A stretch of DNA of 64,000 nt from Halobaculum sp. CBA1158 (lineage in GTDB: Archaea > Halobacteriota > Halobacteria > Halobacteriales > Haloferacaceae), in assembly GCF_021431925.1 (NCBI RefSeq), contig NZ_CP090373.1, positions 1 to 64,000 of the forward strand, given 5' to 3'. The position numbers and the translations under genes are program-made. Below the pieces are notes generated by a model. It saw only the letters and a program-made list of their open reading frames with translations. It was not told the DNA's origin and did not search any database. Positions 4,820 through 32,733 of this stretch are shown here, in pieces (position 1 is the first letter of the stretch; every line of letters starts with the position of its first letter).

Positions 4820-7019
4820 TGTGATCCTCCAGACTGGTGGTGGTGCGCTTGGCTCCGTCGCCGGGTGGCTCCAGAACCTGACACCAGCAGAGAGTGCAGT
4901 ACTTGCCCTTGCAGTGGGTCTCGGCCTTGGCGTCGGCAGTAAGTACCTCTGGGACCGCTTCACTGCAGATGATGAACCAGAGGTAAACTTCACCGATGTC
5001 CTCGATGAGGAGACACTCGAAGAAGGCGAGGCCGAACGCAAGCTCCTCGACGACATCTCTGAGTCGCACAAGACCGTCACCGCGCCCGGAGCTGTCGAGT
5101 GGGAGACGCGAGCGGCACGGGTCGGCGAACAGTGGACGACGACGCTGTATATCGCTAACTATGCCGACTATCCCAACGACGGATATCTGAGTGACCTCTT
5201 CGAGATGACCGATGTCCAGTTCGATCTGACGGCCCACATCACGCCGAAAAATCAGGAGCGGGCCCGGAACGAACTGCAGGACATCGCTGACGACCTCCAG
5301 GTCGATGCTGACCTCGAACAGAGTATCCGGAGTGCCTACCTGCAGGAGCGCGCCAACGAGGCCGCAGCGACGTACAAGGCCGTCGAGAACGGCGCGAACG
5401 TGTTCGACCAAGGGATGTTCATCACCGTCCGGGCCGACGAGAAAGACGAACTCAGAGATGCCGTCCAGACGGTCAAGAGTGCCCTCCGCGACGATCCGGC
5501 GAACCTCACGCCGAAGACCGCAATTTGTCGGCAAGATCTCGCCCTCCAATCCGCCGCGCCCATCGGCGACAACGAGTTCGGCCGGACGTCGATTGCGCTC
5601 GGCGGCGCCGTCGGCGCGTTGCTGTCTTCGCCGCACAACGCGACGATCCTCGAGGAGGGCGGCGTCGAGTTCGGGATTCACAAGGACAACCAGAGTCCTG
5701 TGGTCATCGACCCGTTCGCCCGGGACAACGGGTACGCGATGTTCACCGTCGGCGACACGGGGTCGGGGAAGTCGTTCAGCTCGAAGCAGAACTTCATCCG
5801 GTCGATCGAGCAGAGCAAGGACCGGATCGGCATCATCCTCGAACCGCTGAACAACTGGGCTGGTGTCTCAGAGGCGCTCGACGCCAAGCGGATCACAGTC
5901 GGCGGGACACTCGGGCTGAACCCCTTGGAGATTCGGGAGACACCCGAACACGTCCAGCGGGCGATGGGCGAGGACGCGAGCCCGTTCAACGAGAAGCTCG
6001 ACGACGCGATGAGCTTCCTCACGAACTTCTTCGCCCTTCGTGGTATTTCACTGGGCGACCGGCGGACGACGCTCGAACTCGCCCTCAAACGTGCCTACAA
6101 GCGTCAGGGCATCACCGACGACATCTCGACGCACGACAATCCGAGCCCGACCATCCGTGACATGATGGACGTATTCGAGGATATGGTCGACGACCCCGAG
6201 GAGTTCGTCGTCCGGTCCGACGAAGAGGCAGGGAAGATCAAGGAGGATGCGACGTGGTTGCTCGATCAGCTGCGCCCCTTCGAGGACGACGGACGCCACG
6301 CGAACCTCGGCCAGGAGTCAGACTTCGACATCCGGGACGAGAAGGTCATCTACCTCGACCTCGCCCAGCAGGAGGGCAGCGTCGACAGCAGCACGGCGCT
6401 GACGATGCAGCTGCTCATCTCGCTGGTCTACGAGCGAGCGAAAGTCTCGGAGAAGGAGGTCGTGTTCTACATCGACGAGGCGCGCTACATCATGCAGGAC
6501 GCCGCGAGCCTAGCGTTCCTCGAGACGGTGTTCCGCCACCACCGTCACCACGACCTCTCGATCCGGCTGGTCACGCAGACCGTCGACGAGTTCTTCGAGC
6601 ACGCCGAATCCGAGGCGATCTTGGACCAGTGTGCAGTCAAGCAGTTCCACCGCCTCGACGGGATGGACGAGGAGTGGGCCGACGAGTTCGGCCTGAACTA
6701 CGCGCAGATGCGGTTCGTTCAGGACGCCGTTCCTGGCAACGAGGACGCCGGCTTCTCCGAGGCCCTCGTGGGCGTCGACGGCGAGTGGCGTGGAATCCAG
6801 GTCAAAGCGATGCCCAAGGAGAAGCAGGTCATCGACTTCGAGCCAACCGAGCAACGGCGAGACTCACTCCCCGGGACTGGTGAGAATGCTGTGGACGCGG
6901 AGGTGCAGGCGTTCCAAGACGATATTGAAAGCCGAGCGACCGACAACGGACAACACACACCTGAGCGGACGCCAACAGAGACTGATGGCGGTGAAACGGG
7001 AGGTGACGACGATGCGTGA
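4812..7019 (+). CDS. virB4: VirB4/TraC-type conjugative transfer ATPase
   Basis: 735-residue ATPase that would power assembly or substrate transfer of a type IV secretion-like machine at the membrane. One membrane helix lies at about residues 18-36. A Walker A (GDTGSGKSF) is at about 314-322 and a Walker B (VFYIDEAR) at about 550-557, followed by the helix and QxT-type segment (RLVTQTVDEF) typical of VirB4. The ATG at 4812 is chosen because it overlaps the upstream stop; an in-frame extension from 4743 would lie inside the upstream gene. Its last 8 nt overlap the next ATPase gene. Confidence 0.9.
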   Translation: MRNVILQTGGGALGSVAGWLQNLTPAESAVLALAVGLGLGVGSKYLWDRFTADDEPEVNFTDVLDEETLEEGEAERKLLDDISESHKTVTAPGAVEWETRAARVGEQWTTTLYIANYADYPNDGYLSDLFEMTDVQFDLTAHITPKNQERARNELQDIADDLQVDADLEQSIRSAYLQERANEAAATYKAVENGANVFDQGMFITVRADEKDELRDAVQTVKSALRDDPANLTPKTAICRQDLALQSAAPIGDNEFGRTSIALGGAVGALLSSPHNATILEEGGVEFGIHKDNQSPVVIDPFARDNGYAMFTVGDTGSGKSFSSKQNFIRSIEQSKDRIGIILEPLNNWAGVSEALDAKRITVGGTLGLNPLEIRETPEHVQRAMGEDASPFNEKLDDAMSFLTNFFALRGISLGDRRTTLELALKRAYKRQGITDDISTHDNPSPTIRDMMDVFEDMVDDPEEFVVRSDEEAGKIKEDATWLLDQLRPFEDDGRHANLGQESDFDIRDEKVIYLDLAQQEGSVDSSTALTMQLLISLVYERAKVSEKEVVFYIDEARYIMQDAASLAFLETVFRHHRHHDLSIRLVTQTVDEFFEHAESEAILDQCAVKQFHRLDGMDEEWADEFGLNYAQMRFVQDAVPGNEDAGFSEALVGVDGEWRGIQVKAMPKEKQVIDFEPTEQRRDSLPGTGENAVDAEVQAFQDDIESRATDNGQHTPERTPTETDGGETGGDDDA

Positions 7020-20708: not shown

Positions 20709-20725
20709 TCTGTGAGAGAGGAGGA

Positions 20726-21277
20726 TTAGCTCGTGGCGCGGTCGGCCACGTCGGTCATCTGTTCGCGGGCGGCTTCGACGTCAGAGTAGAGTTCCAGTGC
20801 GTGCTTGATGAGGCGGCGATCCTCCTCGTTCTCACGCCAGAACGCGATGACGTCGCGGCGCTCACGAAGCTCGGCACTTGCGAGGTCACCGTCGGCGAGC
20901 GACTGTTCAAGCTCCTCCCACGTCTCGACGTCGTAGGTCGCCTGCCACTCCTCGATCTCCTCGGTGATCGCGGACAATTCGTTGCGCAGCTCCTCGCGGG
21001 TGTTCTCCTCGATGAGCGTGCGGATCTCCTCGAAGAGCAGGCTCGTGTAGTCCGGCTGGTAGCGCGTTGTCTCGCCGGCCTCAACGCGGCGCAGCTGACC
21101 TTGGTCGACGAGATCCTGGAGTTCCTCGTTGGTCGTACTCCAGGCAGCGTCGGCCTGCTCACTGATCCAGTTGACCGACCGCGGTTCGCGGAGCGTCTCG
21201 GCGACCGCTCGAATGCGGTCGCGGGCACTCATCGACTCAGTCCACGACTGGACCCCATCTCGCGAAGATTCGGACAT
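20726..21277 (-). CDS. Winged-helix DNA-binding protein (pair 2, possible antitoxin/regulator)
   Basis: 183 residues. Residues about 18-80 hold a winged-helix domain (VNWISEQADAAWSTTNEELQ, then a wing-like GETTRYQPD). The rest is a long charged helical segment, as in the protein at 13298. ATG 21277 (MSESSRDG) is preferred; an upstream in-frame extension would run through AT-rich promoter-like DNA around 21310-21350. With its partner downstream it repeats the cassette at 13298-14274 in the opposite orientation. Confidence 0.7.
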   Translation of the reverse strand: MSESSRDGVQSWTESMSARDRIRAVAETLREPRSVNWISEQADAAWSTTNEELQDLVDQGQLRRVEAGETTRYQPDYTSLLFEEIRTLIEENTREELRNELSAITEEIEEWQATYDVETWEELEQSLADGDLASAELRERRDVIAFWRENEEDRRLIKHALELYSDVEAAREQMTDVADRATS

Positions 21278-21401
21278 GTGTGGCACCTCTTGCGACAGTG
21301 TTGGCGCTGTACTCTCATATATGTTTGTACTCTCTCGCATAATCAAGAGTATCTCGTGAGCATAGGCGTCCGGACATTGAAATGCGATACCGACAGAAGC
21401 T

Positions 21402-22295
21402 ATGAGCCAACCGATGCACAACCGATATACTGACTTTGAGGAATTGCGGCCGACTGGCGAGGCGTCCCACATTCCGGACACGAGGCTGGACGACGGCTAT
21501 GAGAGTGCCCCCCGGCGGCAACGCGTCGCGACGAGCTCTGGTGGCTACCCCGATGCGCCGACGGTAACCGACGGCGAGTGCAAGTCGTGTGGGGCGTCAG
21601 TCCCAGACGGCCAGACGAAATGCCGGTTCTGTCTCACCAACCATCTCGGGAGTGACGCCACCAGCACGAACGAGGCAGCGTCGACGACGTGCCTCGGCAT
21701 CGGCCACCTGGTCGTCGAGTCGACCACGTTCTACGGCGCCGTCGCGAAGGGCGGCGCCGCGGCGAACCTCCTCACAGCCAACGACGCGGAGCCAGTCGTC
21801 GACGACTACACGCTCATCTACGATCTCGACGATCCACCGGCGCGCCAGCTGGCCGAGCAATGGCCCTCACTCCCCGACGCGGTACAGGTGTCGTCAGCGG
21901 AGGGAGAGCGGCTTCTCAGTGCCGCCCGTAACCGGACTGGGTGGCACGGGCAGGAAGTGTCGGAACGTCAGGAACAGGCCCCGACGCGGCTCTACGACCA
22001 GCGTGGGGACGGCATCCGCGACGCGTCGCGTCTCGACGCAGTCCTCGACGACGCCGACGATGCGGTGTGGCTGGTTCCAGCGATGGCGCTGACCGAATCT
22101 ACTGGCGAAGCAGCGGCTGATCGCCAGGCGTCGTCGGTACCGACGACGCAGGAACTCGAGTGTCAAACCTGTGGACGGGCGACCGACCATCAGTTCAAGA
22201 CCCACGAGTCGATCCCGGATGCGGCGTGGACGGGGCAACCGATCTGGGAGTGCCGGGTGTGTGGCTCGGCTCGCTACGGCCCCAATCTCGAGTAA
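21402..22295 (+). CDS. Zinc-binding hypothetical protein of haloarchaeal plasmids
   Basis: 297 residues, function not recognised. A zinc ribbon (CKSCG and CRFC) sits at about residues 60-76, and a second Cys set (CQTCGR and CRVCGSARYG) closes the protein. Between them is an alpha/beta segment with many Val/Leu and an acidic surface. It has its own promoter region, divergent from the winged-helix gene at 20726-21277. Inverted-repeat copy B follows 19 nt after its stop. Confidence 0.65.
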   Translation: MSQPMHNRYTDFEELRPTGEASHIPDTRLDDGYESAPRRQRVATSSGGYPDAPTVTDGECKSCGASVPDGQTKCRFCLTNHLGSDATSTNEAASTTCLGIGHLVVESTTFYGAVAKGGAAANLLTANDAEPVVDDYTLIYDLDDPPARQLAEQWPSLPDAVQVSSAEGERLLSAARNRTGWHGQEVSERQEQAPTRLYDQRGDGIRDASRLDAVLDDADDAVWLVPAMALTESTGEAAADRQASSVPTTQELECQTCGRATDHQFKTHESIPDAAWTGQPIWECRVCGSARYGPNLE

Positions 22296-22314
22296 CCCCA
22301 GTGCTGAGCGTCGA

Positions 22315-22356
22315 TTAACCAACACCCTGCGAGAACCGTCGAGGTCCGTTGGTTAA
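22315..22356. promoter_or_regulatory. Dispersed inverted repeat, copy B (N24 spacer)
   Basis: TTAACCAAC at 22315-22323 and GTTGGTTAA at 22348-22356 with a 24-bp spacer. It lies between the zinc-binding protein gene and a small ORF that begins about 75 bp downstream. Confidence 0.85.
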
Positions 22357-22432
22357 GGCCGCAGCTCCTGCAAGCCCGACGCCAGTCTCGATGGCGAGTC
22401 TTTCCGCGCCGGCGAGCGGTGAGGCGCTTCCG

Positions 22433-22621
22433 ATGGAGCAAGAGTTCAAACAAGGGTACCGGATGCATCGTATACTCAGCAATCTCAACCGACTCGACAT
22501 CGACCGATTGGACGACGCGGATCGAGAGCGAGTCGAGACCGCGAGAGACCTCCTGGAAGAGGTGAGCCTTCTCACGCAGCCGGGCGACGGAGCCGGGGCG
22601 GACGCCCACGCAGACTCCTAA
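22433..22621 (+). CDS. Small acidic hypothetical protein
   Basis: 62 residues from ATG 22433, with a possible ribosome-binding site (GTGAGG) about 9 nt upstream; a longer form would start at 22391. Predicted as two helices (RMHRILSNLNRLDIDRL and ADRERVETARDLLEEVSL) followed by a short polar tail. Not recognised. Inverted-repeat copy B lies upstream. Confidence 0.5.
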   Translation: MEQEFKQGYRMHRILSNLNRLDIDRLDDADRERVETARDLLEEVSLLTQPGDGAGADAHADS

Positions 22622-23047
22622 CTGGCGTCGCCGTCCACGTCGCACCTTCAGCCTCAGTAAGTCTTCCCCACCAGGAGGTGAGGGCGCTACTGTGAGAGCT
22701 TCGCATAGCGATATTACAGTGTACGATGGTCAGTGCGACTCCTGACCTTGGAGACCCGTCTCAGACGCAGTACAAGTGTGAGTGATCAGTCCTATCCCGA
22801 CGCTTTCTTGCATGCAGTGAGGCATCGGTTCCTGATTTCCTCTTGGTACGAAGGTTCTCACACTGCTGGTAAGGGATTTTTTGGAGTAAGTCTGTCAGCG
22901 ATTGGCAGTTTGTGCTAAGGCTATTTTGCGAAGATATCACAATACTATTGATACGCAAATCGGTATTATGGCGTCCTAAGTTATGTATCGGACTCTCGGT
23001 AGTGTGTCCGAAGGAGTTTTGTTTTATTGTCCCAAGATAATACACGA
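22622..23047. other. Intergenic region, lower GC, no convincing gene
   Basis: About 425 bp with lower GC than either side. Open frames here have no plausible protein composition. An AT-rich promoter-like segment (CACAATACTATTGATACG near 22940) precedes the DUF302 gene. It marks the junction between the plasmid-type small genes and the sulfur module. Confidence 0.5.
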
Positions 23048-23488
23048 ATGGTACTACCTATCGATCCGGGCCAGATTGGCCAAGACGACATCGGTGAAAA
23101 ACGAACCACTCTTGAGATGGGCCATCGGGAAGCGATCGAACACGTCCGCGACGTGTTTACCGACGCCGGGTTCGGCGTTCCCGTGGAGTTCTCGCCCTCC
23201 GAGATGCTCAACGAGAAGGTTGACGCGGGCCGGGACCCCTACTACGTGCTCGGCGCGTGTAATCCCGAGGTCGCGGACCGCGCCCTCGATGCAACCGACA
23301 ACAAACTCGGGGCGCTTATGGCCTGCAACGTCGTCATCTGGGAAGAGGAACCCGACAAACAGGTCGTGTATCATGTCTCCATCATGCGCATCGCTCGCCT
23401 CGTCGGAATGGCCCCTGACAACGAGGAGATGGCAGACATCGTCGCTGATACCGGCGAATTCGTCGAGGAGGCATTCGCAAACCTCTAA
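23048..23488 (+). CDS. DUF302 family protein
   Basis: 146 residues with the DUF302 pattern: an N-terminal HREAIEHVRDVFTDAGFGV helix, a central YYVLGACNPEVADRAL segment with Cys, and LLACNVVIWEE-like strand (here LMACNVVIWEE). The family is small, soluble and often found with sulfur or metal-linked genes; its reaction is not established. ATG 23048 is preferred over TTG 23027. The stop overlaps the start of the methyltransferase gene by 1 nt, so they form an operon. Confidence 0.8.
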   Translation: MVLPIDPGQIGQDDIGEKRTTLEMGHREAIEHVRDVFTDAGFGVPVEFSPSEMLNEKVDAGRDPYYVLGACNPEVADRALDATDNKLGALMACNVVIWEEEPDKQVVYHVSIMRIARLVGMAPDNEEMADIVADTGEFVEEAFANL

Positions 23489-24048
23489 TGGGATATCATA
23501 CGTTCGACGCCGGCCGCGCCGACAAGCTCGAAGATGCACAACAACGGTACCGGTTTCTCTCCGCGGAGGAGTTGCTCTGGGCGCTGTCACTGGACGGGGG
23601 CGAAACAGTAGCGGACTTCGGCAGCGGAACCGGATTCTACACCGACGATGTCGCACCTGCTGTCGACCACGTGTACGCCGTCGACATCCAGGAAGCGATG
23701 CACGACTACTATCGCGAGAAAGGCGTCCCCGACAACGTCGAACTCGTGACGAGCGGCGTCGACGACCTTCCGCTCGATACTGACAGTCTCGACGCAGCCT
23801 TCTCAACGATGACCTACCACGAGTTCGCTGGGGAGGAGGCGTTAGACGAGATTACTCGGGTGCTGGCGGACGACGGTCGGTTGGTCATTGCCGACTGGGC
23901 AGCAACGGGGAGTGGAGACCACGGGCCTCCGCTTGATGAACGATTCAGTGGTGCGGAAACGGCGAAGCACCTTCGAGACGCCGGATTTTACATCGAGTAC
24001 ACTGCCGTCCGGCCGGAGACTTTCGTGCTTATTGGCGAGCTCAAATAG
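23488..24048 (+). CDS. Class I SAM-dependent methyltransferase
   Basis: 186 residues. Motif I (ADFGSGTGFYTDD) at about residues 43-55, an acidic end of strand 2 (YAVDIQEAM) and a post-motif (FSTMTYHEF) give a Rossmann methyltransferase of the UbiE/small-molecule type. The substrate is unknown. It is coupled to the DUF302 gene and ends convergently 4 nt from the methyltransferase on the other strand. Association with DUF302 and sulfur genes suggests a thiol or metalloid substrate, which is inference only. Confidence 0.8.
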   Translation: MGYHTFDAGRADKLEDAQQRYRFLSAEELLWALSLDGGETVADFGSGTGFYTDDVAPAVDHVYAVDIQEAMHDYYREKGVPDNVELVTSGVDDLPLDTDSLDAAFSTMTYHEFAGEEALDEITRVLADDGRLVIADWAATGSGDHGPPLDERFSGAETAKHLRDAGFYIEYTAVRPETFVLIGELK

Positions 24049-24052
24049 GGGA

Positions 24053-24694
24053 TTACGCCCGTTTCCGAAGAGTTCCTCGTACGAACGGGCGAATCGGTGT
24101 CACGCCGAGATGGAGACGGTCGATCTCGACGATATCGAAGGTCGAATCAGCTGCGAATCGCGACGCAGTCTGCCGCGTCAGGTGACAGCCCCCAGCTAGC
24201 CGTTTCCAGAGTGGTGCGAGCACTGTCTGCACGCGCCCACGCCAGCCATCATCGGCGACGTGCTCGAAGAATCGGAATTCACCACCTGGTCTGAGAACCC
24301 GTGACACTTCACTCAACGCTGTCTCGATATCCGGAATCGTACAGAACACCATCGAGGCAAGGACGGTATCGAACTGATTGTCTGCGTACGGCAGTGATTC
24401 GGCACCCGCCTCGCGAATATCTATATCGAGGTGACGGGCGTTCGCCTTCGAGACCGCCTGTTGACGCATATACGGATCCGGTTCGATCGCGTGTAATGAC
24501 GTCTCGTCCGACGTCGGCAAGTAGTCGAACATCGCACCAGTTCCGGCACCGAGATCGAGCACAGTCCCGCTGAGATCACGAACGAGATATTCGCGATGTG
24601 GCCGGAGAATCGTCCGTTCGGCGAACGCCGTTGCCGGATCGTATATCGCCGCAAAGAGGGGATGCTCCGGAGCTCCGTCCTGCATACTAGTCAC
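24053..24694 (-). CDS. Class I SAM-dependent methyltransferase (UbiE/thiol-type)
   Basis: 213 residues. Motif I (VLDLGAGTGAMFDYL) near residues 45-59, acidic strand 2 (AIEPDPYMR), post-motif (DTVLASMVFCTIPD) and the loop VLRPGGEFRFFEHV are classic for methyltransferase type 11, in the subgroup resembling thiol methyltransferases. ATG 24694 or 24685 could be the start. Divergence from the methyltransferase at 23488 is high, so they are not recent duplicates. Confidence 0.8.
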   Translation of the reverse strand: MTSMQDGAPEHPLFAAIYDPATAFAERTILRPHREYLVRDLSGTVLDLGAGTGAMFDYLPTSDETSLHAIEPDPYMRQQAVSKANARHLDIDIREAGAESLPYADNQFDTVLASMVFCTIPDIETALSEVSRVLRPGGEFRFFEHVADDGWRGRVQTVLAPLWKRLAGGCHLTRQTASRFAADSTFDIVEIDRLHLGVTPIRPFVRGTLRKRA

Positions 24695-24748
24695 TCGTCC
24701 CGACTGGAGGTCGAGTCGCGGAGCAGGGGGACACCCTGCGTGGCGGTG

Positions 24749-25153
24749 TCACTGTTCGATCGCCACCGCGGTTTCGCCCTGCTGGTCGTACTTTTCGCGG
24801 AATTCGCCGATCAGCTGACCCATCTTCGCGTACCAGTCGTTGAGCAGTCGCTGCATCTCATCGGCGATTTGGTCGGGGTCAGTGGGCCGGTAGACGTGGC
24901 AATAACCGCCCTGGTCGTAGTTGATCTGCTCTTTCTGGACGAACCCGGCCTGCATCAGCCGCTGGACGGAGCGATATGCCGTCGACCGTTCCCGGTCGAT
25001 CTGCTCCGCGATGTCGTCGACTGTGAGCGGCTCGGTCGTCTCAACGAGGAGACCGAACACCTCTTTGTCGAGTTCCTTCGTGCCGTGAAAACACTCCAAC
25101 AGCCCCTCACAGGTCATATCCTGTCGGAGCATTTCACTCATCGAATCGGCCAT
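24749..25153 (-). CDS. TrmB-like winged-helix transcription regulator, copy 1
   Basis: 134 residues. A winged helix (about 25-90: LTVDDIAEQIDRERSTAYRS) is followed by a helical C-terminus (DEMQRLLNDWYAKMGQLIGE) that probably dimerises. It is a close paralogue of the protein at 26915-27331, sharing the MxDSMSEMLR start and the same C-terminal helix. That shared start fixes ATG 25153. A TTGTA-N7-TACAA inverted repeat 38-54 bp upstream is a likely operator. Position among membrane and sulfur genes suggests a sensor for thiol, sulfide or metal stress. Confidence 0.8.
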   Translation of the reverse strand: MADSMSEMLRQDMTCEGLLECFHGTKELDKEVFGLLVETTEPLTVDDIAEQIDRERSTAYRSVQRLMQAGFVQKEQINYDQGGYCHVYRPTDPDQIADEMQRLLNDWYAKMGQLIGEFREKYDQQGETAVAIEQ

Positions 25154-25190
25154 ACGTACCGACAGATAGGAGAATGAGTCATAAAAACGT

Positions 25191-25207
25191 TTGTATAGTT
25201 GGTACAA
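25191..25207. promoter_or_regulatory. Inverted repeat TTGTA-N7-TACAA upstream of HTH copy 1
   Basis: TTGTA at 25191-25195 and TACAA at 25203-25207. It overlaps the TATA-like promoter region (TATACAAA on the minus strand) of the regulator gene starting at 25153, the expected place for autorepression. Confidence 0.45.
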
Positions 25208-25327
25208 GACTGTGAATCACGACGTGTGCGGCTGCAAACACAACGCGAACCGCCGTCCGGTCACTATCTCAGCCCCTGTCCGTCGACCGCGAGGTCTGCC
25301 CCTCCAAATTCGGATCGGGATGCGAGA

Positions 25328-25801
25328 TTAGTTCACTAGATCCTCTCTCGCGGTCGCTGTCGACTCCGACGAGACCATATCCCGCCGGACAGTCATGATG
25401 ACGCCGCTTGCGAGCATCAGGACGGCTATCGCAATCATCCCCCCGTCGACACCCATTGCTTCAGCTGCCATCCCCCCGTCCATACTGGAGCCCATTCCGG
25501 AGTCCATGCCGCCACTCATAGGGCCGGTCATCGTCATGAGCCCCTGATTGAGCAGCATCAGTATCGCGTAGCCGATCATAAGCGGCCCACTTGCTGTTCC
25601 GAGGCGGTCAACTGCTGGCGTCAGAAGAATGATTCCGTGGAGAACGACGATCACGCCGAGACCCAGCATAATCCACGCACTGCTGGTCATCGCTGATCCG
25701 GTCGTCGACTGATACACTGAATAGCCCCCGGAAACGAGCGCGATGAGGCTTCCGTAGAGCCGCATCGTCGATATCGACGCGGACGAGTGCTCGTTGTTCA
25801 T
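25328..25801 (-). CDS. Polytopic membrane protein with Met/Gly-rich loop
   Basis: 157 residues with about four membrane helices. Between helices three and four lies a loop dense in Met, Gly, Ser and Asp (residues about 93-118, e.g. GPMSGGMDSGMGSSMDGG). Such Met-rich loops often bind soft metals such as Cu(I) or Ag(I). ATG 25801 (MNNEHSS) excludes a basic, out-of-character N-terminal extension. A metal-sensing or handling role is inferred from the loop and from its place near sulfur and metal-transport genes. Confidence 0.65.
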   Translation of the reverse strand: MNNEHSSASISTMRLYGSLIALVSGGYSVYQSTTGSAMTSSAWIMLGLGVIVVLHGIILLTPAVDRLGTASGPLMIGYAILMLLNQGLMTMTGPMSGGMDSGMGSSMDGGMAAEAMGVDGGMIAIAVLMLASGVIMTVRRDMVSSESTATAREDLVN

Positions 25802-25806
25802 TTGTG

Positions 25807-26061
25807 CTACTTGTCGTGCGTGTTGATCCCGGCGACCTGGTTTGCCGGGCACTTCTGTGTCGTTCCGGTAACGACGAAGATCGCCCCCGCAACAAGGACG
25901 AGTGCTGTGACTGCCAGCCCGATAGTGCCTGCCAGGCCGATATCAAGATAGCCCGCGGCCGCAGCGACGCCAACTGCAACGAGAATCGGTCCAAGGACGA
26001 GCCTGACTTTTCTGTCGAGGCCACCAACGTTCTTTTCCATTACAGGTGTCTCTGGGGCCAT
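25807..26061 (-). CDS. DUF2892-type small membrane protein
   Basis: 84 residues, two membrane helices (about 24-45 and 48-66) with the YgaP/DUF2892 membrane-domain pattern (EKNVGGLDRKVRLVLG, then ...KCPAN). In bacteria such domains are fused or linked to rhodaneses and sulfur handling. Possible starts at 26061 or 26040. It lies 5 nt before the Met-rich membrane protein gene, in the same direction, so the two form an operon. Confidence 0.75.
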   Translation of the reverse strand: MAPETPVMEKNVGGLDRKVRLVLGPILVAVGVAAAAGYLDIGLAGTIGLAVTALVLVAGAIFVVTGTTQKCPANQVAGINTHDK

Positions 26062-26219
26062 AGTATCTTAAAGCCTTGCCAAGAGTATACAATATTCGCG
26101 ATGTGGATCAAAAATACGGGCGCTTGGATAGTCGTGTTCGATCACCTGTAAATAGTAGCCCCTACCGAGTCAGACACCACGCTACGTCAGAATGTCTCCG
26201 CGTAGAGGCTGAGAAGGTG

Positions 26220-26918
26220 TTATTCGTGGGGGCTTCTGAGAGCCTCTTCCCGAAGTTCGTCATGTGCTCGCCACGTCCGGGGCCGCACAGCGATGAACAC
26301 CGCCCCAGCGAACACCAGGGCGACCACTCCGGTAACGATAGCCCCGGGAAGCATCCCCACCGCTGCACTCGCCGGCCACTCAGCGGGGCCGAAGGCCGTC
26401 ACCCGCAGCACCCACGCACCGTTGAGAATGGCAAGTAACGGCAGATACACGCGCCGCAGCCGGTGAGCGATCGCCTCCTCGGCGGAAATCTTCAACGCAG
26501 GCTGGTGGTAGTCCGCGGCGAGCCGGCGGCGCCAGTCATCGGCCGGCTCTCGGGTCGGGTCGAGCCCGACGGCGAAGACGTTTCGCTGGAGCGTCCGCAC
26601 CCGCGAGCGCCACATGTCGTAGGCACGGTACCGGCGCGCCTCGATGACGAGGAAGAGCCCGACGGCGAGGTTGCCGATGAGCAGGACGTAGTGGGGATTC
26701 GAGGGGGTCGTGAACGCCCATGTTAGGATGGCCGCGAGCAGCAACACCGCCCAGTTCGTTGTTCGGTCCAGCCGTTCGCGCCACAACTTCATCCGGTGGA
26801 CCTCGCCCCGGTAGAGGTGCGCCATCGCACCCGACGGCCCCATCTCCTCGTCGAGGAGGCCGCGACCGACGGCCGCATCACCAGCCAGCTCGTCCGGGTC
26901 GGTTGGTGGTTGGCTCAT
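26220..26918 (-). CDS. DUF2270 family membrane protein
   Basis: 232 residues. The conserved DUF2270 N-terminal order (MAHLYRGEVHRMKLWRERLD, then paired helices at about 54-92 and RRYRAYDMWRSRVR) and a C-terminal helix pair (about 170-215) are seen. Function unknown; the family is common in haloarchaea. Its start overlaps the stop of the upstream regulator gene by 4 nt (ATGA), so the pair is co-expressed. Confidence 0.8.
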   Translation of the reverse strand: MSQPPTDPDELAGDAAVGRGLLDEEMGPSGAMAHLYRGEVHRMKLWRERLDRTTNWAVLLLAAILTWAFTTPSNPHYVLLIGNLAVGLFLVIEARRYRAYDMWRSRVRTLQRNVFAVGLDPTREPADDWRRRLAADYHQPALKISAEEAIAHRLRRVYLPLLAILNGAWVLRVTAFGPAEWPASAAVGMLPGAIVTGVVALVFAGAVFIAVRPRTWRAHDELREEALRSPHE

Positions 26919-27331
26919 TTGGGGTCCGGTGGCGGCGTTCGTTCATTATGGGTCTCGAATTCGTCGTACTTCTCGCGGAACTCGGCGATGAGTTGGCCCA
27001 TCATCGCGTACCAGTCGTTGAGCAGTCGCTGCATCTCGTCGGCGACCTCGTGCGGGTCGGCCGGCGAGAACACGTGGTAGTAGCTGCCCGACTCGAAACT
27101 CCGCTTGTCCGCTTCGACGATCCCCGCCTCCTGCAGCCGCTGGAGGGACCGATACGCGGTCGTCCGCTCGCGGTCAATTGCGTCGGCGAGCTCGTCCACC
27201 GTTAGGGGTTCGTCGGCCTTGACGAGGAGTCGGAACACCCGGCGGTCAAGGTCGTTCAGGCCGTGAAAGCAGTCCAGCAGTGACTCACACTCGAGGTCTC
27301 GCCGGAGCATCTCGGACATCGAGTCGACCAC
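26915..27331 (-). CDS. TrmB-like winged-helix transcription regulator, copy 2
   Basis: 138 residues. Same build as the protein at 24749: winged helix (about 25-90, LTVDELADAIDRERTTAYRS) and a nearly identical C-terminal helix (DEMQRLLNDWYAMMGQLIAEFREKYD shared in most positions). The acidic tail ends in a Pro run. It is the first gene of the DUF2270 operon and lies downstream of the sulfur-transport genes on the same strand. Two such paralogues 2 kb apart suggest sensing of related signals. Confidence 0.8.
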   Translation of the reverse strand: MVDSMSEMLRRDLECESLLDCFHGLNDLDRRVFRLLVKADEPLTVDELADAIDRERTTAYRSLQRLQEAGIVEADKRSFESGSYYHVFSPADPHEVADEMQRLLNDWYAMMGQLIAEFREKYDEFETHNERTPPPDPK

Positions 27332-27389
27332 TACCTGTCACCTCCGGGGACGGTGGCAACGACGGTTGTGAGACCGGGCCGTGTTACAA

Positions 27390-27863
27390 TCATGTCCCGA
27401 CCTCCGTCGTGGTGCTGGTGCCCGTCAGCGCAGTCCGGAGCCAGCCTTGCAGATACGCGCCAGTAAACATCCCACCGATCGCCCACAGGATCGGCAGATT
27501 ACCGACGCCGAGACTCGCATAGGCGGCTCCCGGACAGATACCGGAGAGTCCCCAGCCGACGCCGAACACCGCGCCGCCGGCGAGGACGTTCCTGTCGAAC
27601 GCCTTCAGGCGTCGCCCGTACTGACGCCCGGTCAGCGGTGCCCGACGGCCGGACCGCACGGCGAGGGTGATCGTCACGGCAGTCACAGTCGCAGCCCCAC
27701 CCATAACGAGCAGCAAGCCGAGGTCCTCGAACTGGAGGAAGTCGAGGACGACCTCCGGTCGGGCCATCCGTCCGACTGCGAGGCCGACGCCAAATACGAG
27801 CCCACCGACGAAGACGACCGGCAGGAACAGCGGGTGCTGGTCGTGCTCCGGCGTGGGACTCAC
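27390..27863 (-). CDS. YeeE/YedE-family transporter subunit, C-terminal half
   Basis: 157 residues, about four membrane helices, with the conserved SGICPGAAYASLG motif (Cys near residue 113) of the YeeE/YedE (TsuA-like) thiosulfate or sulfur-compound transporters. The family is often one 350-residue protein; here it is split into this half and the one at 27860-28324. GTG at 27863 is chosen because it overlaps the upstream stop (GTGA) and excludes a non-hydrophobic extension. It would import a sulfur compound for the TusA/DsrE/rhodanese proteins encoded alongside. Confidence 0.8.
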   Translation of the reverse strand: MSPTPEHDQHPLFLPVVFVGGLVFGVGLAVGRMARPEVVLDFLQFEDLGLLLVMGGAATVTAVTITLAVRSGRRAPLTGRQYGRRLKAFDRNVLAGGAVFGVGWGLSGICPGAAYASLGVGNLPILWAIGGMFTGAYLQGWLRTALTGTSTTTEVGT

Positions 27864-28324
27864 GGCACCACCCCCAGGGCTGCGACGAGTTGCGCGGTGC
27901 CGACGGCGATCGCTAGGAAGGTGATGACGCCGATGATGGAGGTTCGAGAACCGGAGCCAACGCCACAGACGCCGTGGCCCGAGGTACAGCCTTTCCCGAT
28001 CCGGGTGCCGACGCCGACCAGGAGGCCACCAAAGGCGAGCCGCCACGGCTGGACGTCAGTCGTCCACGGCCCGTCACCGAGCGTGAAGGCGTAGGCAGCG
28101 GCGCCGATGACGATGCCAACCGAGAAGACGACGCGCCAGTCGCGAGACGTCCGATAGCGACTGAATCGCGGCTGATCGGATACGTACGAGAGCGTGGACT
28201 CGAGGAACGTGCTTGCGCCCGCCGGGATGGCCGTCGCGAGATAGATGACGGCGGTGCCGAGGCCGATGAAGACGCCGCCAAGCAGGTACGGGAGCCAGCC
28301 GTTCGGGAACAATGCGTCGAGCAT
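27860..28324 (-). CDS. YeeE/YedE-family transporter subunit, N-terminal half
   Basis: 154 residues, about four membrane helices, with the motif GKGCTSGHGVCG near residues 110-121 that carries the pathway Cys in thiosulfate transporters. Together with the following gene it makes a full-length YeeE/YedE. Its start overlaps the rhodanese-MBL gene stop (28324) and its stop overlaps the next start by 4 nt, so the three are one operon. Confidence 0.85.
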   Translation of the reverse strand: MLDALFPNGWLPYLLGGVFIGLGTAVIYLATAIPAGASTFLESTLSYVSDQPRFSRYRTSRDWRVVFSVGIVIGAAAYAFTLGDGPWTTDVQPWRLAFGGLLVGVGTRIGKGCTSGHGVCGVGSGSRTSIIGVITFLAIAVGTAQLVAALGVVP

Positions 28325-29496
28325 CAGTCCCCCGCCGCGCAGTTGTTCGGCCCCAGTTCCATCGTGAACGCCTCATCGTCGTCCGCACGTGCCTGGCCGA
28401 GGTTCGTCGCGATGATCTCCTCGTAGTTGGCCGGGCGCGGCGGCATATCATCGAGGACGCGCTCGACGAATGCATCCTGGTCGAGACCGAGTAAGTCGAG
28501 CTGTTCACCCAGGTTGCCGAGCGACGCGAGGTACGTACCGTCCGAGCGTGGCTCAGTGGTCTCGCCGAAGTGCGCCGGCCCGACGAGCGTTTCGTCCGGC
28601 AGCGTCAACAGCCGTTCGTGGAGCGTCTCGTAGAGCTGCTCGGCAGCCGCCTGCGCGCCTGCATCTCCTTCCTCGAGGTCGGGGCGGGCGACGCTGTCGA
28701 TGAACAACGTGTCCCCAGTCAGCGCGAGTTCCTCGTCGATTCGGTACGTGGTCATCCCCGAGGTGTGCCCCGGCGTCGCCAACACGGCCAGCGTCGCCTC
28801 ACCGACAGCGAGCGTATCGCCGTCGCGAACGGTTCGCACGTCAGCGGTGTAAGTCACGCCCCGGTCTGCGGCCGCAGCTGGGAGCACGGCTGTCGCGCCG
28901 GTCGCAGCGGCCAGCTCACGCAGGCCGCTGATGTGGTCGGCGTGGATGTGGGTGTCGAGGACGTACTCGACGTCAGCCCCGAGGTCGGCGGCGTCGGCCT
29001 CGTATCGCTCGACGAAGGCGCGCAACGGGTCGATGACCGCCGCAGCTCCGTCGTTGACGACCATATAGGCCAGACAGCCGGACGACGGACGGCGGTACTG
29101 ACGGACCAGCGTGCCGGTCGACAGTTCGACATCGGTGTGGTCGTACAGCCGGGCCCACCCGCGCATCCCGTCGGCGAGGTGGGTGGTGTTGTACCCCGCG
29201 TCTGCGAGCAGGCCAGCGACGAACTCGCTGGACTTCCCTTTCGCACACGTCACCACAACTGGCTCATCAGCCGGGATGTCGGTGACCAGCTCGTCGTCGA
29301 TGCCGTCGAGGAACTCGAAGTACGGCACGTTGATCGTCGTGACGGTGTCGCCGGTGATGTGCCACTCTTCGAAATCGCTCTGTGCGCGTGTATCGAGGAG
29401 GGTGACCCGGTCGCCACCGTCGATGCGCCGTTTGAGTGATTTGGGACTCGTCGGCTCGATGTCCGCCTCAGTTTCCGGGAACTCCGTGGAACTCAT
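28324..29496 (-). CDS. Rhodanese / metallo-beta-lactamase fusion (persulfide dioxygenase-like)
   Basis: 390 residues. An N-terminal rhodanese domain (about 20-125) has its active-site Cys at C84 (VTCAKGKSS). A metallo-beta-lactamase domain follows (about 130-390) with the metal motif H183-x-H185-x-D187-H188 (THIHADH) and later ligands (TPGHTSG, LTGDTLF, GPAHF). It resembles persulfide dioxygenases fused to rhodanese, which oxidise persulfides to sulfite and move the sulfane sulfur. The order (rhodanese first) is a known variant. A GGGAGGT ribosome site precedes the ATG. Upstream is the palindrome GTTTGCAAAC at 29538-29547. Confidence 0.9.
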   Translation of the reverse strand: MSSTEFPETEADIEPTSPKSLKRRIDGGDRVTLLDTRAQSDFEEWHITGDTVTTINVPYFEFLDGIDDELVTDIPADEPVVVTCAKGKSSEFVAGLLADAGYNTTHLADGMRGWARLYDHTDVELSTGTLVRQYRRPSSGCLAYMVVNDGAAAVIDPLRAFVERYEADAADLGADVEYVLDTHIHADHISGLRELAAATGATAVLPAAAADRGVTYTADVRTVRDGDTLAVGEATLAVLATPGHTSGMTTYRIDEELALTGDTLFIDSVARPDLEEGDAGAQAAAEQLYETLHERLLTLPDETLVGPAHFGETTEPRSDGTYLASLGNLGEQLDLLGLDQDAFVERVLDDMPPRPANYEEIIATNLGQARADDDEAFTMELGPNNCAAGD

Positions 29497-29537
29497 ACCT
29501 CCCTCTTACTGACCAGCGTCTAAAAGGATTGCGTTTG

Positions 29538-29547
29538 GTTTGCAAAC
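29538..29547. promoter_or_regulatory. Palindrome GTTTGCAAAC in the rhodanese-MBL promoter
   Basis: Perfect 10-bp palindrome about 42 bp upstream of the minus-strand start at 29496, just upstream of an AT-rich TATA-like element (CCTTTTAGA on the minus strand). Plausible operator for a local regulator such as the paired TrmB-like proteins. Confidence 0.35.
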
Positions 29548-29635
29548 TATCTAAAGCTTCGAAACCCTGTTTTTCTTTGGCATCAATAACGAGCACAGAA
29601 TTATGACTTCTTCGTGGCCGTATTAGTGGATAAAA

Positions 29636-29649
29636 TACGATTATTCGTA
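29636..29649. promoter_or_regulatory. Inverted repeat TACGA-N4-TCGTA upstream of tusA
   Basis: TACGA at 29636-29640, TTAT, TCGTA at 29645-29649, about 70 bp before the tusA ATG, in AT-rich DNA. Possible operator. It does not match the sequence of the TTGTA/TACAA repeat exactly, but both are short symmetric sites in promoters of the same module. Confidence 0.4.
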
Positions 29650-29718
29650 ATTGAGAGATTGTGGCCGACTCGAAATACTCTTGTGCTTTCGGTTCAAGAT
29701 TGTAGACAGAGCGCAATA

Positions 29719-29970
29719 ATGGATTCCGACACACCGACCGAAACGCTGGACGTCACCGGTGAATCGTGTCCGATGCCCGTTGTGAAGACAAAGCAAGCTG
29801 TTGACGATCTCGACAGTGGAGCGCTGCTCGAAGTCCGTGCGACGGACGCGGGGAGCGTCAGCGACATCGACGGCTGGGCAGCCGGAACGCCCGGCGTCGA
29901 GCTGATCGGCCAGTCTGAGGAGACCCAGGCCGACAAGACGGTCTATGTGCATCGGGTGCGCGTCGAATGA
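29719..29970 (+). CDS. tusA: TusA-family sulfur carrier
   Basis: 83 residues, with the hallmark C17-P18-M19-P20 (GESCPMPVVKTKQA) that carries sulfur as a persulfide in the cytoplasm. Length fits the family. ATG 29719 is chosen from the conserved N-terminus (TLDVTGESCPMP). The stop overlaps the DsrE-like gene start by 4 nt. It is divergent from the rhodanese/YeeE operon and would pass sulfur between those proteins. Confidence 0.9.
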   Translation: MDSDTPTETLDVTGESCPMPVVKTKQAVDDLDSGALLEVRATDAGSVSDIDGWAAGTPGVELIGQSEETQADKTVYVHRVRVE

Positions 29971-30560
29971 GTACTGACACCGAGACCGAGGTGACTGACG
30001 AGCACCCTGACGGTTCAGCGACCCGTATTGAAGAGCTGGAAGCCCGTATTGAAACGTTGGAGGCCGAGATGGATGCAACTGCCGGGACCGAGATGGGCGA
30101 CGAGAAGTCGATGGTCATCGTGGCGACGAAGGGGACCCTCGACATGGCCTATCCGCCGCTGATCCTCGCCTCGACCGCGGCAGCATTCGGCTGGGATGTC
30201 ACCGTCTTCCATACCTTCTGGGGGCTGGACATCCTCCACGAAGAGCAGTCGGCGGACCTCAAGCTGTCCGCGGTCGGGAATCCGAATATGTCGGTGCCGA
30301 ACGCCGTGGCGGCGTTACCCGGGATGGACCGGTTGGCGACGACGATGATGGAGCGACGGATCGCCGACAACGACGTGGCGACCATCGACGAGTTGCTCGA
30401 AACGTCGCTGGAGATGGGGGTCGACCTCCAAGCCTGTCAGATGACGATGGACCTGATGGACTACGACGACAACGCGTTCCACGAGGGCGTCACGGTCGGC
30501 GTCGGTGCCGCGACCGCGCTCTCGGAGATGGCCGACGCCGATGTCCAACTGCTCGTATAG
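29967..30560 (+). CDS. DsrE-family sulfur-relay / peroxiredoxin-like protein
   Basis: 197 residues. A short coiled-coil (about 20-40) precedes a DsrE/DrsE2-like fold (MVIVATKGTLDMAYPPLILA, FHTFWGLDI, then a conserved LQACQMTMDLMD with the likely active Cys, and GVGAATALSEM). It would work with TusA in sulfane-sulfur transfer. Translationally coupled to tusA. Larger than bacterial DsrE (about 120-130) because of the N-terminal coil and inserted loop, as in the DsrE2 subgroup. Confidence 0.85.
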   Translation: MSTDTETEVTDEHPDGSATRIEELEARIETLEAEMDATAGTEMGDEKSMVIVATKGTLDMAYPPLILASTAAAFGWDVTVFHTFWGLDILHEEQSADLKLSAVGNPNMSVPNAVAALPGMDRLATTMMERRIADNDVATIDELLETSLEMGVDLQACQMTMDLMDYDDNAFHEGVTVGVGAATALSEMADADVQLLV

Positions 30561-30809
30561 GAACGAACGAGAAGCGAGCCAACAGTTACTCGACACTGCA
30601 AGATCTGCCGCCCGAACGACGAGGGCGGCTTCGTGACCCACGAGTTCTTGCGAGAGCTCGCCGACCACCTCGAAGCCAACGAAGAGTTCGATATCCAGAC
30701 GGCGGGGTTCACCAAATGCCGTTTCCCAGTCCTGGCCAAGCGGTACGTCGTTCGAGATGGCGAAGTCCTCCACGCGGACCTCAGTTCCCCCGACCCGATC
30801 GACGAGTAG
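30561..30809 (+). pseudogene. Start-less CxxC protein fragment behind the DsrE gene
   Basis: Immediately after the DsrE stop, the same frame stays open for 82 codons to TAG 30807-30809. It reads like a genuine protein (HCKICRPNDEGGFVTHEFLR, then LADHLEANEEFDIQ and KCRFPVLAKRYVVRDGEVLH). There is no ATG in the first part; the only in-frame alternative is GTG 30633, which would cut off the CKIC motif. It may be a decayed small zinc/thiol protein, a start lost by mutation, or one translated through an unusual start. Confidence 0.45.
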
Positions 30810-30810
30810 C

Positions 30811-30845
30811 GTTGTTCGTCCCCCGAAAGGGGTGCGGGGCGATCC
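30811..30845 (+). promoter_or_regulatory. Leader element copy 3
   Basis: GTTGTTCG followed by CCCCC, a GAAA loop, GGGG, TGC and GGGG: the C-run can pair with either G-run. 33 nt before the gene at 30879, same strand. Confidence 0.7.
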
Positions 30846-30878
30846 AGTCGTGGGGCGCCCTGCGAGGTGATTGTTCAA

Positions 30879-31541
30879 ATGGGTCACCGCGCACTCGTTG
30901 CGTACGAACGGACAGACGGACAGTACACGCTCCACTACAGCCATTGGGGCGCAGCGAACCTGAAGCTCAAGCACCGAATCTCGGCTGAATCGCCGTTCGG
31001 TGGCGACGACACCGACTCCAAGTGGGCGAAACAGCTGCTGGCTGAACTAGCCGATGGCCTTGAGGCAGATGCCGTCGACGGCTACCTGGCCGGCGAGGAT
31101 CGACCGTCGACGGTCGTCGAGCCGAAGCCCCGCGCCACCGGGCTCACCCTCGACGAGATCGTCGCGGATCATCTCGACTATCTCCACCACGAGGCGTTCT
31201 TCGGGGTGTCGACGACGTTCGAGGTGACCGCGTATCGGACGCTGTGGTTTGGGCTCCAGTACGACTCGGAGACAGTCGAACAGGGAGAGACAGTCGGGAA
31301 CGGCGCGCTCGCGACGGTGCGCTGGTACGACGGCGAGCCGGTCGGCGACGGCCACCTGCAGGGACAGTTCGCGGCCCTCAAAGACGTCGTCGGCGATATG
31401 CTCGACAAGGGCGTCTTCACGCCGTCGACGGCGAGGCAGTACCTGAAACGGAAGCTGGCCGAGCGAGTCGGAGACCGACAGGAGCTGCTCATTCCGACCG
31501 GGGAATCACCCTTCGAGAAGGCGAGTCTCAGCAAGCCGTAA
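30879..31541 (+). CDS. Haloarchaeal DUF6735-like protein
   Basis: 220 residues of unknown function. The start MGHRALVAYERTDGQYTLHY is a pattern I associate with the DUF6735 family of haloarchaea, followed by an acidic alpha/beta region and a basic C-terminal helix (ARQYLKRKLAERVGDRQELL). ATG 30879 is chosen from that conserved beginning; 12 nt upstream ATT is a weaker choice. A leader element lies upstream. Confidence 0.65.
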   Translation: MGHRALVAYERTDGQYTLHYSHWGAANLKLKHRISAESPFGGDDTDSKWAKQLLAELADGLEADAVDGYLAGEDRPSTVVEPKPRATGLTLDEIVADHLDYLHHEAFFGVSTTFEVTAYRTLWFGLQYDSETVEQGETVGNGALATVRWYDGEPVGDGHLQGQFAALKDVVGDMLDKGVFTPSTARQYLKRKLAERVGDRQELLIPTGESPFEKASLSKP

Positions 31542-31578
31542 CACCAATCCCTTAGTGGATATCGGGGGACGCCTAAGT

Positions 31579-31863
31579 ATGGCAAATCAGTCTGAAGATG
31601 ACGTTCGTGTTTGGCTTGTCGAACGGACGTACTCCGATGACGAGCAGAACCTGATCATCCTCACCTACGCAACACCCGATGGAGAACAGTACTATCGGAA
31701 GGAACGCGCACTCACGTCCTTCACCGACGTCCGAGACACGACAGCAGCAGTCGATGCTGAACCCGGCAATCTTGGCATAGTCGATGACCCCGACCTCCAG
31801 GAACAATACGCGGCCGAAGCGCAGCGAATGCAGGAGGTCCACGACCCGGACGACGTGATCTGA
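31579..31863 (+). CDS. Small acidic hypothetical protein
   Basis: 94 residues from ATG 31579, not recognised. A beta-hairpin-like core (DVRVWLVERTYSDDEQNLII, then YATPDGEQYYRKERAL) precedes a helical tail. No Cys or membrane segment. Single gene between the DUF6735-like and HTH-10 genes. Confidence 0.6.
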   Translation: MANQSEDDVRVWLVERTYSDDEQNLIILTYATPDGEQYYRKERALTSFTDVRDTTAAVDAEPGNLGIVDDPDLQEQYAAEAQRMQEVHDPDDVI

Positions 31864-31924
31864 TACCCGCCAGTAGACATCACCCCGGGCCATGGGTTAT
31901 GTCGTAGCAGGCCTTAGTCGGGGT

Positions 31925-32674
31925 ATGCGCGAACTCGTCTTCGCTCTCGAATACGAGCCCGGCTGCAACAGGGTGGCGGACGCCCTCGCCGACCACCCTG
32001 ACGCCCGTGTCCGGTCGCTCTCGCTGCACGCCACTGCCGAGCGTCTCTGGCGGGTTGACCACGCTACCGGCAGCCCGGATGCCCTTGACGCCATCGAGGA
32101 CGCGTTTCGCACCAGCGACTACTACGCCGACTGTTTGGCTACCGAGGACTGCAATGCCACCCAGACCACCCGCGTTCTCGACCGCATGGACGACACGCTC
32201 GTCCTCTACTCCGACTGGGAGCGAACCCCTTCCTGCGCGTCCGTCCCCCACATCGCCCGCGACCACCTCGGCGACGGCGTGCTGTTTGAGACTCGTCACG
32301 AGGGCCACCACTACACGTGGCGACTCATCCACTCCGGAGAGGGCGACGTGTCCGCGTTCTTCGACGCCCTCAAAATCGCCGTCGGGGACTGCGCCCAGAT
32401 GGAGATGCTCCGAACCGCGGACACAACGGCGTCGGGGGAAGGAGTCGACGAGACGCAAAGTGACATGTCTCCGAAGCAAGAGGCCGCGCTTCAGGCAGCC
32501 GTCGAACACGGATACTACGAGTCCCCACGTGAGGTCGACGTCGGCGAACTGGCCGAGCATCTCAACGTGCCGCGGTCGACGCTCACCTACCGGCTCCGCC
32601 GGGCGGAGGAACACTTGGCGAAGCAGCACGTCGCCGGGGAACGATTGCCCGAAGAGCCCCCAGCAACACGCTGA
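31925..32674 (+). CDS. HTH-10 (bacterio-opsin activator type) transcription regulator
   Basis: 249 residues. The N-terminal domain is sensor-like (about 1-150, with Cys in YADCLATEDC and TPSCASV) and the C-terminus is a canonical HTH-10 (about 190-240: LQAAVEHGYYESPREV, then LAEHLNVPRSTLTYRLRRAE). It sits 59 nt before the P1B ATPase gene and is expected to control it in response to metal. Start at ATG 31925, giving the family's usual beginning MRELVF. Confidence 0.85.
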   Translation: MRELVFALEYEPGCNRVADALADHPDARVRSLSLHATAERLWRVDHATGSPDALDAIEDAFRTSDYYADCLATEDCNATQTTRVLDRMDDTLVLYSDWERTPSCASVPHIARDHLGDGVLFETRHEGHHYTWRLIHSGEGDVSAFFDALKIAVGDCAQMEMLRTADTTASGEGVDETQSDMSPKQEAALQAAVEHGYYESPREVDVGELAEHLNVPRSTLTYRLRRAEEHLAKQHVAGERLPEEPPATR

Positions 32675-32682
32675 CCCTTGAT

Positions 32683-32696
32683 TTGGAATACTCCAA
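32683..32696. promoter_or_regulatory. Inverted repeat TTGGA-N4-TCCAA before the metal ATPase
   Basis: TTGGA (32683-32687) and TCCAA (32692-32696) flank ATAC, about 38 bp upstream of the ATPase ATG at 32734. The reverse-complement core GTATTCCA reappears before the aconitase gene near 35301-35310. Possible shared operator of the HTH-10 regulator. Confidence 0.45.
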
Positions 32697-32733
32697 CAAA
32701 GGCTTATCGATCTGACGCACCTACCGTGAGGTG

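Follow-up and report, generated by a model that had tools for sequence, protein, structure and literature searches.

A plasmid-borne sulfur-gene block of Halobaculum sp. CBA1158 and its predicted control by paired-cysteine winged-helix regulators

BigR is an ArsR-type repressor of bacteria. The cst operon of Staphylococcus combines a persulfide regulator with genes for a dioxygenase-rhodanese, TauE and TusA, features shared with the system described here, and differs in being bacterial and in its CsoR-type regulator. In the papers we found, persulfide-specific gene control is described for bacteria, and the archaeal thiol or sulfur regulators named there are SurR, MsvR and OxsR. OxsR (HVO_2970) of Haloferax volcanii regulates through a thiol, with C24 forming a disulfide between subunits. 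Both OxsR and HVO_1360 are TrmB-type proteins of arCOG02242, and HVO_1360, which is said to have C15 and C21, was proposed as an OxsR partner (available text of PMC9426492). The YeeE-like SoxT1B serves the repressor SoxR (available text of PMC11582611). Here we describe a sulfur-gene block with two paralogous regulators, REGa and REGb, in Halobaculum sp. CBA1158. It lies in a 64,000-nucleotide stretch (hereafter the window), which is the start of contig C3 (135,778 b) in a genome of 3.32 Mb and four contigs.

With moderate confidence, we read the block as a copy, on a plasmid, of a haloarchaeal regulon that handles sulfane sulfur in the form of persulfide, polysulfide or thiosulfate and would be switched by regulators carrying a CX5C cysteine pair. 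The regulon most likely serves persulfide detoxification, as an analogue of bigR and cst with a regulator from another family. Genes of the block were identified by a Pfam scan of the open reading frames (ORFs) of the window (L numbers denote compared loci):

23048-23488, plus strand: DUF302 protein (PF03625, E 3.5e-13)
23488-24048, plus strand: MT1, class I methyltransferase (PF08241)
24053-24694, minus strand: MT2, class I methyltransferase (PF08241), downstream of REGa as in L043, L095 and L096 (synteny)
24749-25153, minus strand: REGa, CX5C winged-helix regulator (PF01978; C15/C21)
25328-25801, minus strand: Met/Gly-rich membrane protein of an unnamed family (homologues only)
25807-26061, minus strand: YgaP-like transmembrane protein (PF11127), start at 26061 or 26040
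26220-26918, minus strand: DUF2270 membrane protein (PF10028), left end of the DUF2270-DsrE2 cassette
26915-27331, minus strand: REGb, CX5C winged-helix regulator (Pfam, predicted structure, fold match)
27390-27863, minus strand: YeeE half, DUF6691, N-half of Sulf_transp below cut-off (Pfam; scanned as 27390-28046)
27860-28324, minus strand: YeeE half, C-half of Sulf_transp (PF04143, profile 172-306)
28324-29496, minus strand: rhodanese-MBL fusion, persulfide-dioxygenase-like (Pfam; MBL part related to ETHE1 and BpPRF)
29719-29970, plus strand: TusA (PF01206)
29967-30560, plus strand: DsrE2 (PF13686)
30601-30809, plus strand: remnant of a backbone gene, 5' part missing at the insertion (whole gene in L248 at 2818-3198; match begins at 2990)
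22639-30600, no strand: inserted block in a conserved plasmid backbone (blastn against L248)

The initial annotation of the window had named DUF302, two methyltransferases, a split YeeE/YedE, rhodanese-MBL, TusA, DsrE and DUF2270. All of these were recovered by Pfam, and the view of the block as a sulfur relay and oxidation module is supported. In the fusion protein, residues 17-116 form the rhodanese part and residues 140-309 the MBL part. The rhodanese Cys loop is conserved in 50/51 sequences and the MBL metal-ligand motifs (HxHxDH, H, D) in 51/51, 51/51 and 50/51, respectively. These ligands are those of persulfide dioxygenases of the ETHE1/PRF type, and ETHE1 and BpPRF were both matched. 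The Blh model (NF040641) gave 55.8 bits, from the MBL part only, compared to a curated cut-off of 625 for the whole protein. The CPxP motif of TusA (47/47), the cysteine motif of DsrE2 (42/42) and those of the YeeE halves (56/56 and 54/54) are likewise conserved. The half-size YeeE pair corresponds to PmpA/PmpB, with matches to profile positions 172-306 and, below the cut-off, 2-119. In the proposed mechanism, the split YeeE pair would import sulfur, DsrE2 and TusA would carry it as protein persulfide, and the fusion would accept it and oxidise it to sulfite. In many relatives, the sulfite could leave through a TauE exporter encoded beside the regulator.

REGa and REGb are 60% identical over their whole length. 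A shared C-terminal sensor helix had been proposed for them, and this helix is nearly identical in both, yet it is nearly invariant across the whole regulator family and therefore indicates no special tie between the two. As a sensor it was dropped, since a feature conserved family-wide is uninformative. The N-terminal CX5C pair (C15, C21) appears to be the likelier sensor. It is present in 114/114 strong homologue rows, a redundant set containing the chromosomal copy and some species twice, compared to 0/5 distant winged helix-turn-helix rows, which represent four genes. The pair was also found in 31/31 regulators of an even draw (28 by the stricter pattern CX5CxH, the other three read directly) and in 0/16 OxsR-type paralogues. 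Outside the haloarchaeal class, it was read by eye in 20/20 sampled members (cysteines were read at 20 of 35 listed places, and gene neighbours at 18 of these). A family member at E ≤ 1e-20 occurs in 374/391 haloarchaeal genomes. The switch would consist of persulfidation of C15/C21, or of a disulfide or polysulfide link between them.

The best solved-structure match, by sequence and by fold, is 3r0a (MM_1094), followed by AbfR2 (6cmv). The model of REGb (mean predicted local distance difference test, pLDDT, 85.9) has helices at residues 5-13 and 93-130. A single winged-helix domain with helices on either side, as in arCOG02242-like single-domain TrmB regulators, is found in Pfam (TrmB) and in the model. 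NCBIfam models for Sta1 and Lrs14 match the regulators below their cut-offs. Membership in the ArsR or CsoR fold families was not found, as the best Pfam match is TrmB and ArsR HTH_5 reaches only E 9e-3 and 7e-4, below the cut-off. Because the regulators fall outside ArsR and CsoR and the fusion falls below the Blh cut-off, the system is regarded as an analogue of bigR and not as a member. Two conserved cysteines are shared with BigR/SqrR/CstR-type repressors at the level of sequence conservation, their reactivity being predicted. A further protein of the genome, 123 aa long and with a single cysteine, at position 24, is taken as the OxsR orthologue. C21 aligns with the cysteine of this protein (L004 row), i.e. 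with OxsR C24. REGa and REGb do not qualify as OxsR orthologues, having two cysteines, and the OxsR-type rows are on a separate side of the tree. The family appears to group with OxsR, a known thiol-based regulator. HVO_1360 is taken as a CX5C family member from the published mention of C15 and C21, as opposed to a comparison of sequences; if it is a member, Haloferax volcanii offers a test case.

As small, single-domain winged-helix proteins, REGa and REGb would bind palindromes of the type TATTG-N11-CAATA at the promoters of the sulfur genes, the DUF302-MT1 pair and the YgaP-like/Met-rich genes. The following sites (no strand) were found in the block; scores are from a matrix built from 14 sites, none of them from the window, and then applied elsewhere:

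22922-22946: palindrome upstream of DUF302, score 20.8, best in 64 kb, 1 mismatch to TATTG-N11-CAATA
23015-23039: second palindrome before DUF302, score 16.9
25187-25211: weak palindrome before REGa, score 5.7
26072-26096: palindrome upstream of the YgaP-like gene, score 14.6
29525-29549: palindrome before rhodanese-MBL, score 7.8, inner TTGC-N9-GCAA
29655-29720: three palindromes before TusA, starts 29655, 29677 and 29696, scores 12.3, 11.9 and 14.0

Five window sites score at least 13 (0.4 expected per 64 kb), namely two before DUF302 and one each before the YgaP-like gene, before TusA and at 56506. The hit at 56506 was taken as chance because it is inside an open frame. At up to two mismatches, there are 15 matches in 64 kb compared to 5.46 expected, a number reached in 0/100 shuffles, and 8 of the 15 are in the block. 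In the whole genome a single exact palindrome occurs, between the chromosomal rhodanese-MBL and TusA genes; one mismatch adds 14 places, two of which are in the block, compared to 9 places for the reversed control. The intergenic TTGC-N9-GCAA form before rhodanese-MBL recurs in L013, L123, L015 and L008. One palindrome type marks the promoters of DUF302, the YgaP-like gene and TusA, which supports, in silico, the co-regulation that the initial annotation had assumed, DUF302 included. Two of its three operator positions, 25191 and 29538, fall in TTG-N11-CAA-type sites, the first of which scores 5.7, but 29636 does not, the nearest site being 29655-29679. The TACGA-N4-TCGTA word at 29636 is kept in L013 but not in L123, and it was rejected as an operator.

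TATTG-N11-CAATA is the top palindrome in 35 non-redundant TusA/rhodanese-MBL intergenic regions (41 in all, less one empty and five near-copies), being present in 22/35 with a mean of 0.0 in shuffles, a comparison that does not correct for common ancestry. Among non-redundant promoters, a score of at least 13 was reached by TauE (33/50), thioredoxin (38/48), DUF302 (4/8), MT1 (4/13) and DsrE2 (23/30), and by the training promoters of rhodanese-MBL (35/38) and TusA (32/38). The corresponding values are 0/26 for PiT, 0/14 for TrxR, 0/6 for USP, 0/2 for MT2, 4/35 and 2/39 for the YeeE halves, 1/14 for DUF2270 and 1/3 for YgaP (the window's own), and 142/2260 for random stretches. Independent of the training set are the TauE and thioredoxin promoters, those of DUF302 (the 8 include the window), the window and four dioxygenase promoters (G004, G006, G020, G025). 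Sites scoring at least 18 number 52 in the 31 even-draw loci (in 16/16 loci with module genes and 4/15 without) and 0 in 16 OxsR loci.

In 26 genomes, 53 exact palindromes were counted compared to 8 for the reversed control. Of these, 14 are within 6.5 kb of a regulator (0.29 expected) and 12 directly precede a close-type rhodanese-MBL gene (0.009 expected). A close-type dioxygenase, defined by at least 420 bits with a cut-off chosen after the scores were seen, is present in 20/25 genomes with the regulator and in 0/17 without (p 1.1e-7). The 17 regulator-less genomes are those with a best E above 1e-20, and five of them are less than 90% complete; restricted to genomes at least 90% complete, the count without regulator is 0/12 (p 3.3e-6). 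More distant rhodanese-MBL paralogues are present in 12 of the 17. These data bear on the idea that a different regulator binds the palindrome and that the CX5C proteins are mere neighbours. Binding of the palindrome by CX5C proteins is itself a prediction, and regulator promoters seldom have a site, both of which fit that idea. However, genomes with the regulator hold 50 exact sites compared to 7 control sites, and those without it hold 8 compared to 4, none near a listed rhodanese-MBL gene. Together with the distribution of the close-type dioxygenase, this makes a different binder improbable.

Gene neighbourhoods were compared in the 80 loci nearest among the regulator matches listed and in the even draw of 31, with neighbour names taken from annotated records and shadow frames of high-GC DNA ignored in neighbour clustering. 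Within 6.5 kb in the 80 loci are a TauE-type exporter (48), thioredoxin (35), the YeeE halves (35 and 34), rhodanese-MBL (34), a PiT transporter (27) and DsrE2 (20). A module gene or TauE is within this distance of 16/31 even-draw regulators compared to 0/16 OxsR loci (p 2.4e-4). Outside the class, a thioredoxin gene is found within about 1.1 kb in 9/18 loci (L277, L284, L286-L292), and the 18 loci gave no match to rhodanese-MBL, YeeE, TusA, DsrE2 or TauE at E ≤ 1e-3. Thioredoxin therefore looks like the older partner of the family.

The main rival explanation is that the CX5C regulators are general thiol-oxidant sensors like OxsR, responding to hypochlorite, peroxide or disulfide stress, and that they target the sulfur genes along with thiol-repair genes such as thioredoxin. 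In favour of this, OxsR belongs to the same structural group and relies on a thiol at the aligned position, thioredoxin recurs beside the regulators outside the class and its promoters often carry the palindrome, and half of the regulators have no sulfur genes nearby. However, the linkage to the dioxygenase, TusA/DsrE2, YeeE and TauE is strong, OxsR orthologues show none of it, and the second cysteine is specific to the CX5C family. We consider a general oxidant sensor less likely than the sulfane-sulfur reading, though clearly more likely than a different binder of the palindrome. Sulfane sulfur is the putative signal, and the direction in which the regulators act on transcription is likewise a prediction.

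Several observations weigh against a dedicated sulfane-sulfur regulon. The motif was learnt partly in loci of genomes that were later counted for exact sites, which makes that count partly circular. In the 35 intergenic regions, TCGAG-N3, GAGGA-N8 and CGAGG-N10 words are also far above shuffles; they are read as conserved coding ends within the stretches, and the count in these regions alone therefore proves little. Regulator genes seldom have a site of their own scoring at least 13 (REGa 9/95, REGb 1/7), and the window sites before rhodanese-MBL and REGa are weak. No module gene is near 15/31 regulators, and 11 of these 15 loci have no site of at least 18, so the family does more than control the persulfide module. 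The linkage to thioredoxin only, outside the class, also fits general thiol redox control. TauE was detected neither on contig C3 nor next to the chromosomal copy of the module.

The initial description of the block as mobile is borne out to the extent that it was inserted into a plasmid backbone; no transposase or integrase is among its Pfam-scanned ORFs. The Halobacterium plasmid pBOL4-2_105.9 (L248) aligns by blastn with window positions 20725-22638 (87%) and 30601-33809 (92%), through its coordinates 824-2740 (left flank) and 2990-6195 (right flank). In this plasmid the two flanks are separated by about 249 bp, so window 22639-30600 is extra DNA. The small backbone gene at the junction is whole in L248, and its first part is missing in the window. 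Reading by hand indicated that the frame of this remnant (window 30561-30809) is open right after the DsrE2 stop codon. Haloarchaeal plasmids commonly carry the right flank, with DUF6735 and its neighbours: window 30560-31600 gave matches in 88 records, at least 80% of it being covered in 34.

The block appears to be composed of two or more cassettes that each carry their own regulator, and not to result from a fresh duplication. The right junction is also present in a Haloglomus contig (L013), which is 93% identical over window 26221-31321. In L013, direct copies (93%, about 100 bp) of the same backbone gene at 608-707 and 5191-5290 flank the DUF2270-DsrE2 cassette, as if left behind by its insertion. 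A Haloarcula plasmid (L123) carries the cassette at 83% in different surroundings (window 26219-30559, DUF2270 stop to DsrE2 stop), and the left end is at 26219-26221 in L123, L014 and L013. In the regulator tree, from which four regulator rows missed by the trimming pattern were left out, REGa pairs with L043 (support 96), and L043, L095 and L096 have MT2 after REGa. The rows nearest to REGb by path are L013, L014 and L123, all of the same cassette, at a poorly supported fork. A recent tandem duplication is not favoured, since the nearest relatives sit in two different cassettes. The chromosome encodes a third family member inside a second copy of the sulfur module. On a Halobacterium noricense plasmid (L125, 4941-7020), a CX5C regulator is accompanied by thioredoxin and by a divergent DUF302-methyltransferase pair, with several palindromes nearby and an ISH3 transposase gene upstream.

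Window 30867-35139 encodes DUF6735, an HVO_2928-type HTH gene and a heavy-metal P-type ATPase, in an order conserved in L248, and the DUF6735 part of this backbone segment is also on many other plasmids. The ATPase (32731-35139), the Met/Gly-rich membrane protein and a possible metal-binding CX5CxH would suit a soft-metal (Cu, Zn) resistance island in which the sulfur genes serve metal detoxification. The ATPase is part of the plasmid backbone and present without the block in L248, no metal gene was found inside the unit or, among the regulator matches listed, recurrently linked to it, and the recurrent neighbours of the CX5C family are sulfur and thiol genes. The Met/Gly-rich stretch of the 25328-25801 protein is real and recurs in homologues, and the protein has no Pfam or NCBIfam match. 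Its family, present in 34/194 haloarchaeal genomes, adjoins a CX5C regulator in at least 3/38 listed places, judged by the regulator matches listed, which are incomplete. The soft-metal link drawn initially from this protein is not supported, and a metal resistance island is very improbable. A second, partial match to the protein is on the chromosome (G000:C1:647659-647985).

Taken together, a broader and more tentative proposal, to which we give slightly less than even weight, is that a euryarchaeal two-cysteine winged-helix family (HVO_1360 type) with thioredoxin as its older partner became a dedicated haloarchaeal persulfide switch with its own operator, TATTG-N11-CAATA. The regulon would comprise the dioxygenase, TusA/DsrE2, the sulfite exporter, thioredoxin and the DUF302-methyltransferase pair. 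The switch would have an origin independent of the ArsR- and CsoR-type persulfide repressors of bacteria, and plasmid cassettes would carry it from genus to genus. Archaeal reactive-sulfur sensing becomes directly testable through the regulator family, its two cysteines, the DNA site and the list of targets given here. DUF302 gains a first candidate context, and the sulfur module is inserted in a plasmid backbone shared by haloarchaeal genera. In the literature searched, with subscription journals mostly outside the search, no paper among the hits listed was seen to tie HVO_1360-type regulators to sulfur genes or to give this operator.

Compared to the described systems, REGa and REGb resemble OxsR in the single-domain winged helix and in a cysteine at the same position, C21 aligning with the functional cysteine of OxsR. 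OxsR differs by its one cysteine, by the lack of sulfur genes nearby in 16/16 loci and by its CG-rich operator motif (available text of PMC9426492). HVO_1360 is said to share C15 and C21, and the available text of PMC9426492 gives no link to sulfur for it. The bigR operon of Xylella and Agrobacterium likewise unites a two-cysteine winged-helix regulator, a sulfurtransferase-dioxygenase fusion and a TauE exporter in one unit, but the BigR cysteines are C42 and C108 and the sulfurtransferase part of Blh is DUF442, whereas it is a rhodanese in the window (available text of PMC5823870). In the ScCsoR-pdo circuit of Streptomyces, a repressor released by sulfane sulfur also controls a dioxygenase, with a regulator of the CsoR type (available text of PMC7533328). 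SoxT1A/SoxT1B and PmpA/PmpB similarly tie YeeE-type sulfur transport to a sulfane-sulfur regulator, and PmpA/PmpB are half-size pairs with one conserved cysteine each (available text of PMC11582611); these systems differ in being bacterial and in their ArsR-type SoxR. If the proposed reading is true, the block and its chromosomal relatives represent an archaeal counterpart of the bacterial systems for sensing and clearing reactive sulfur.

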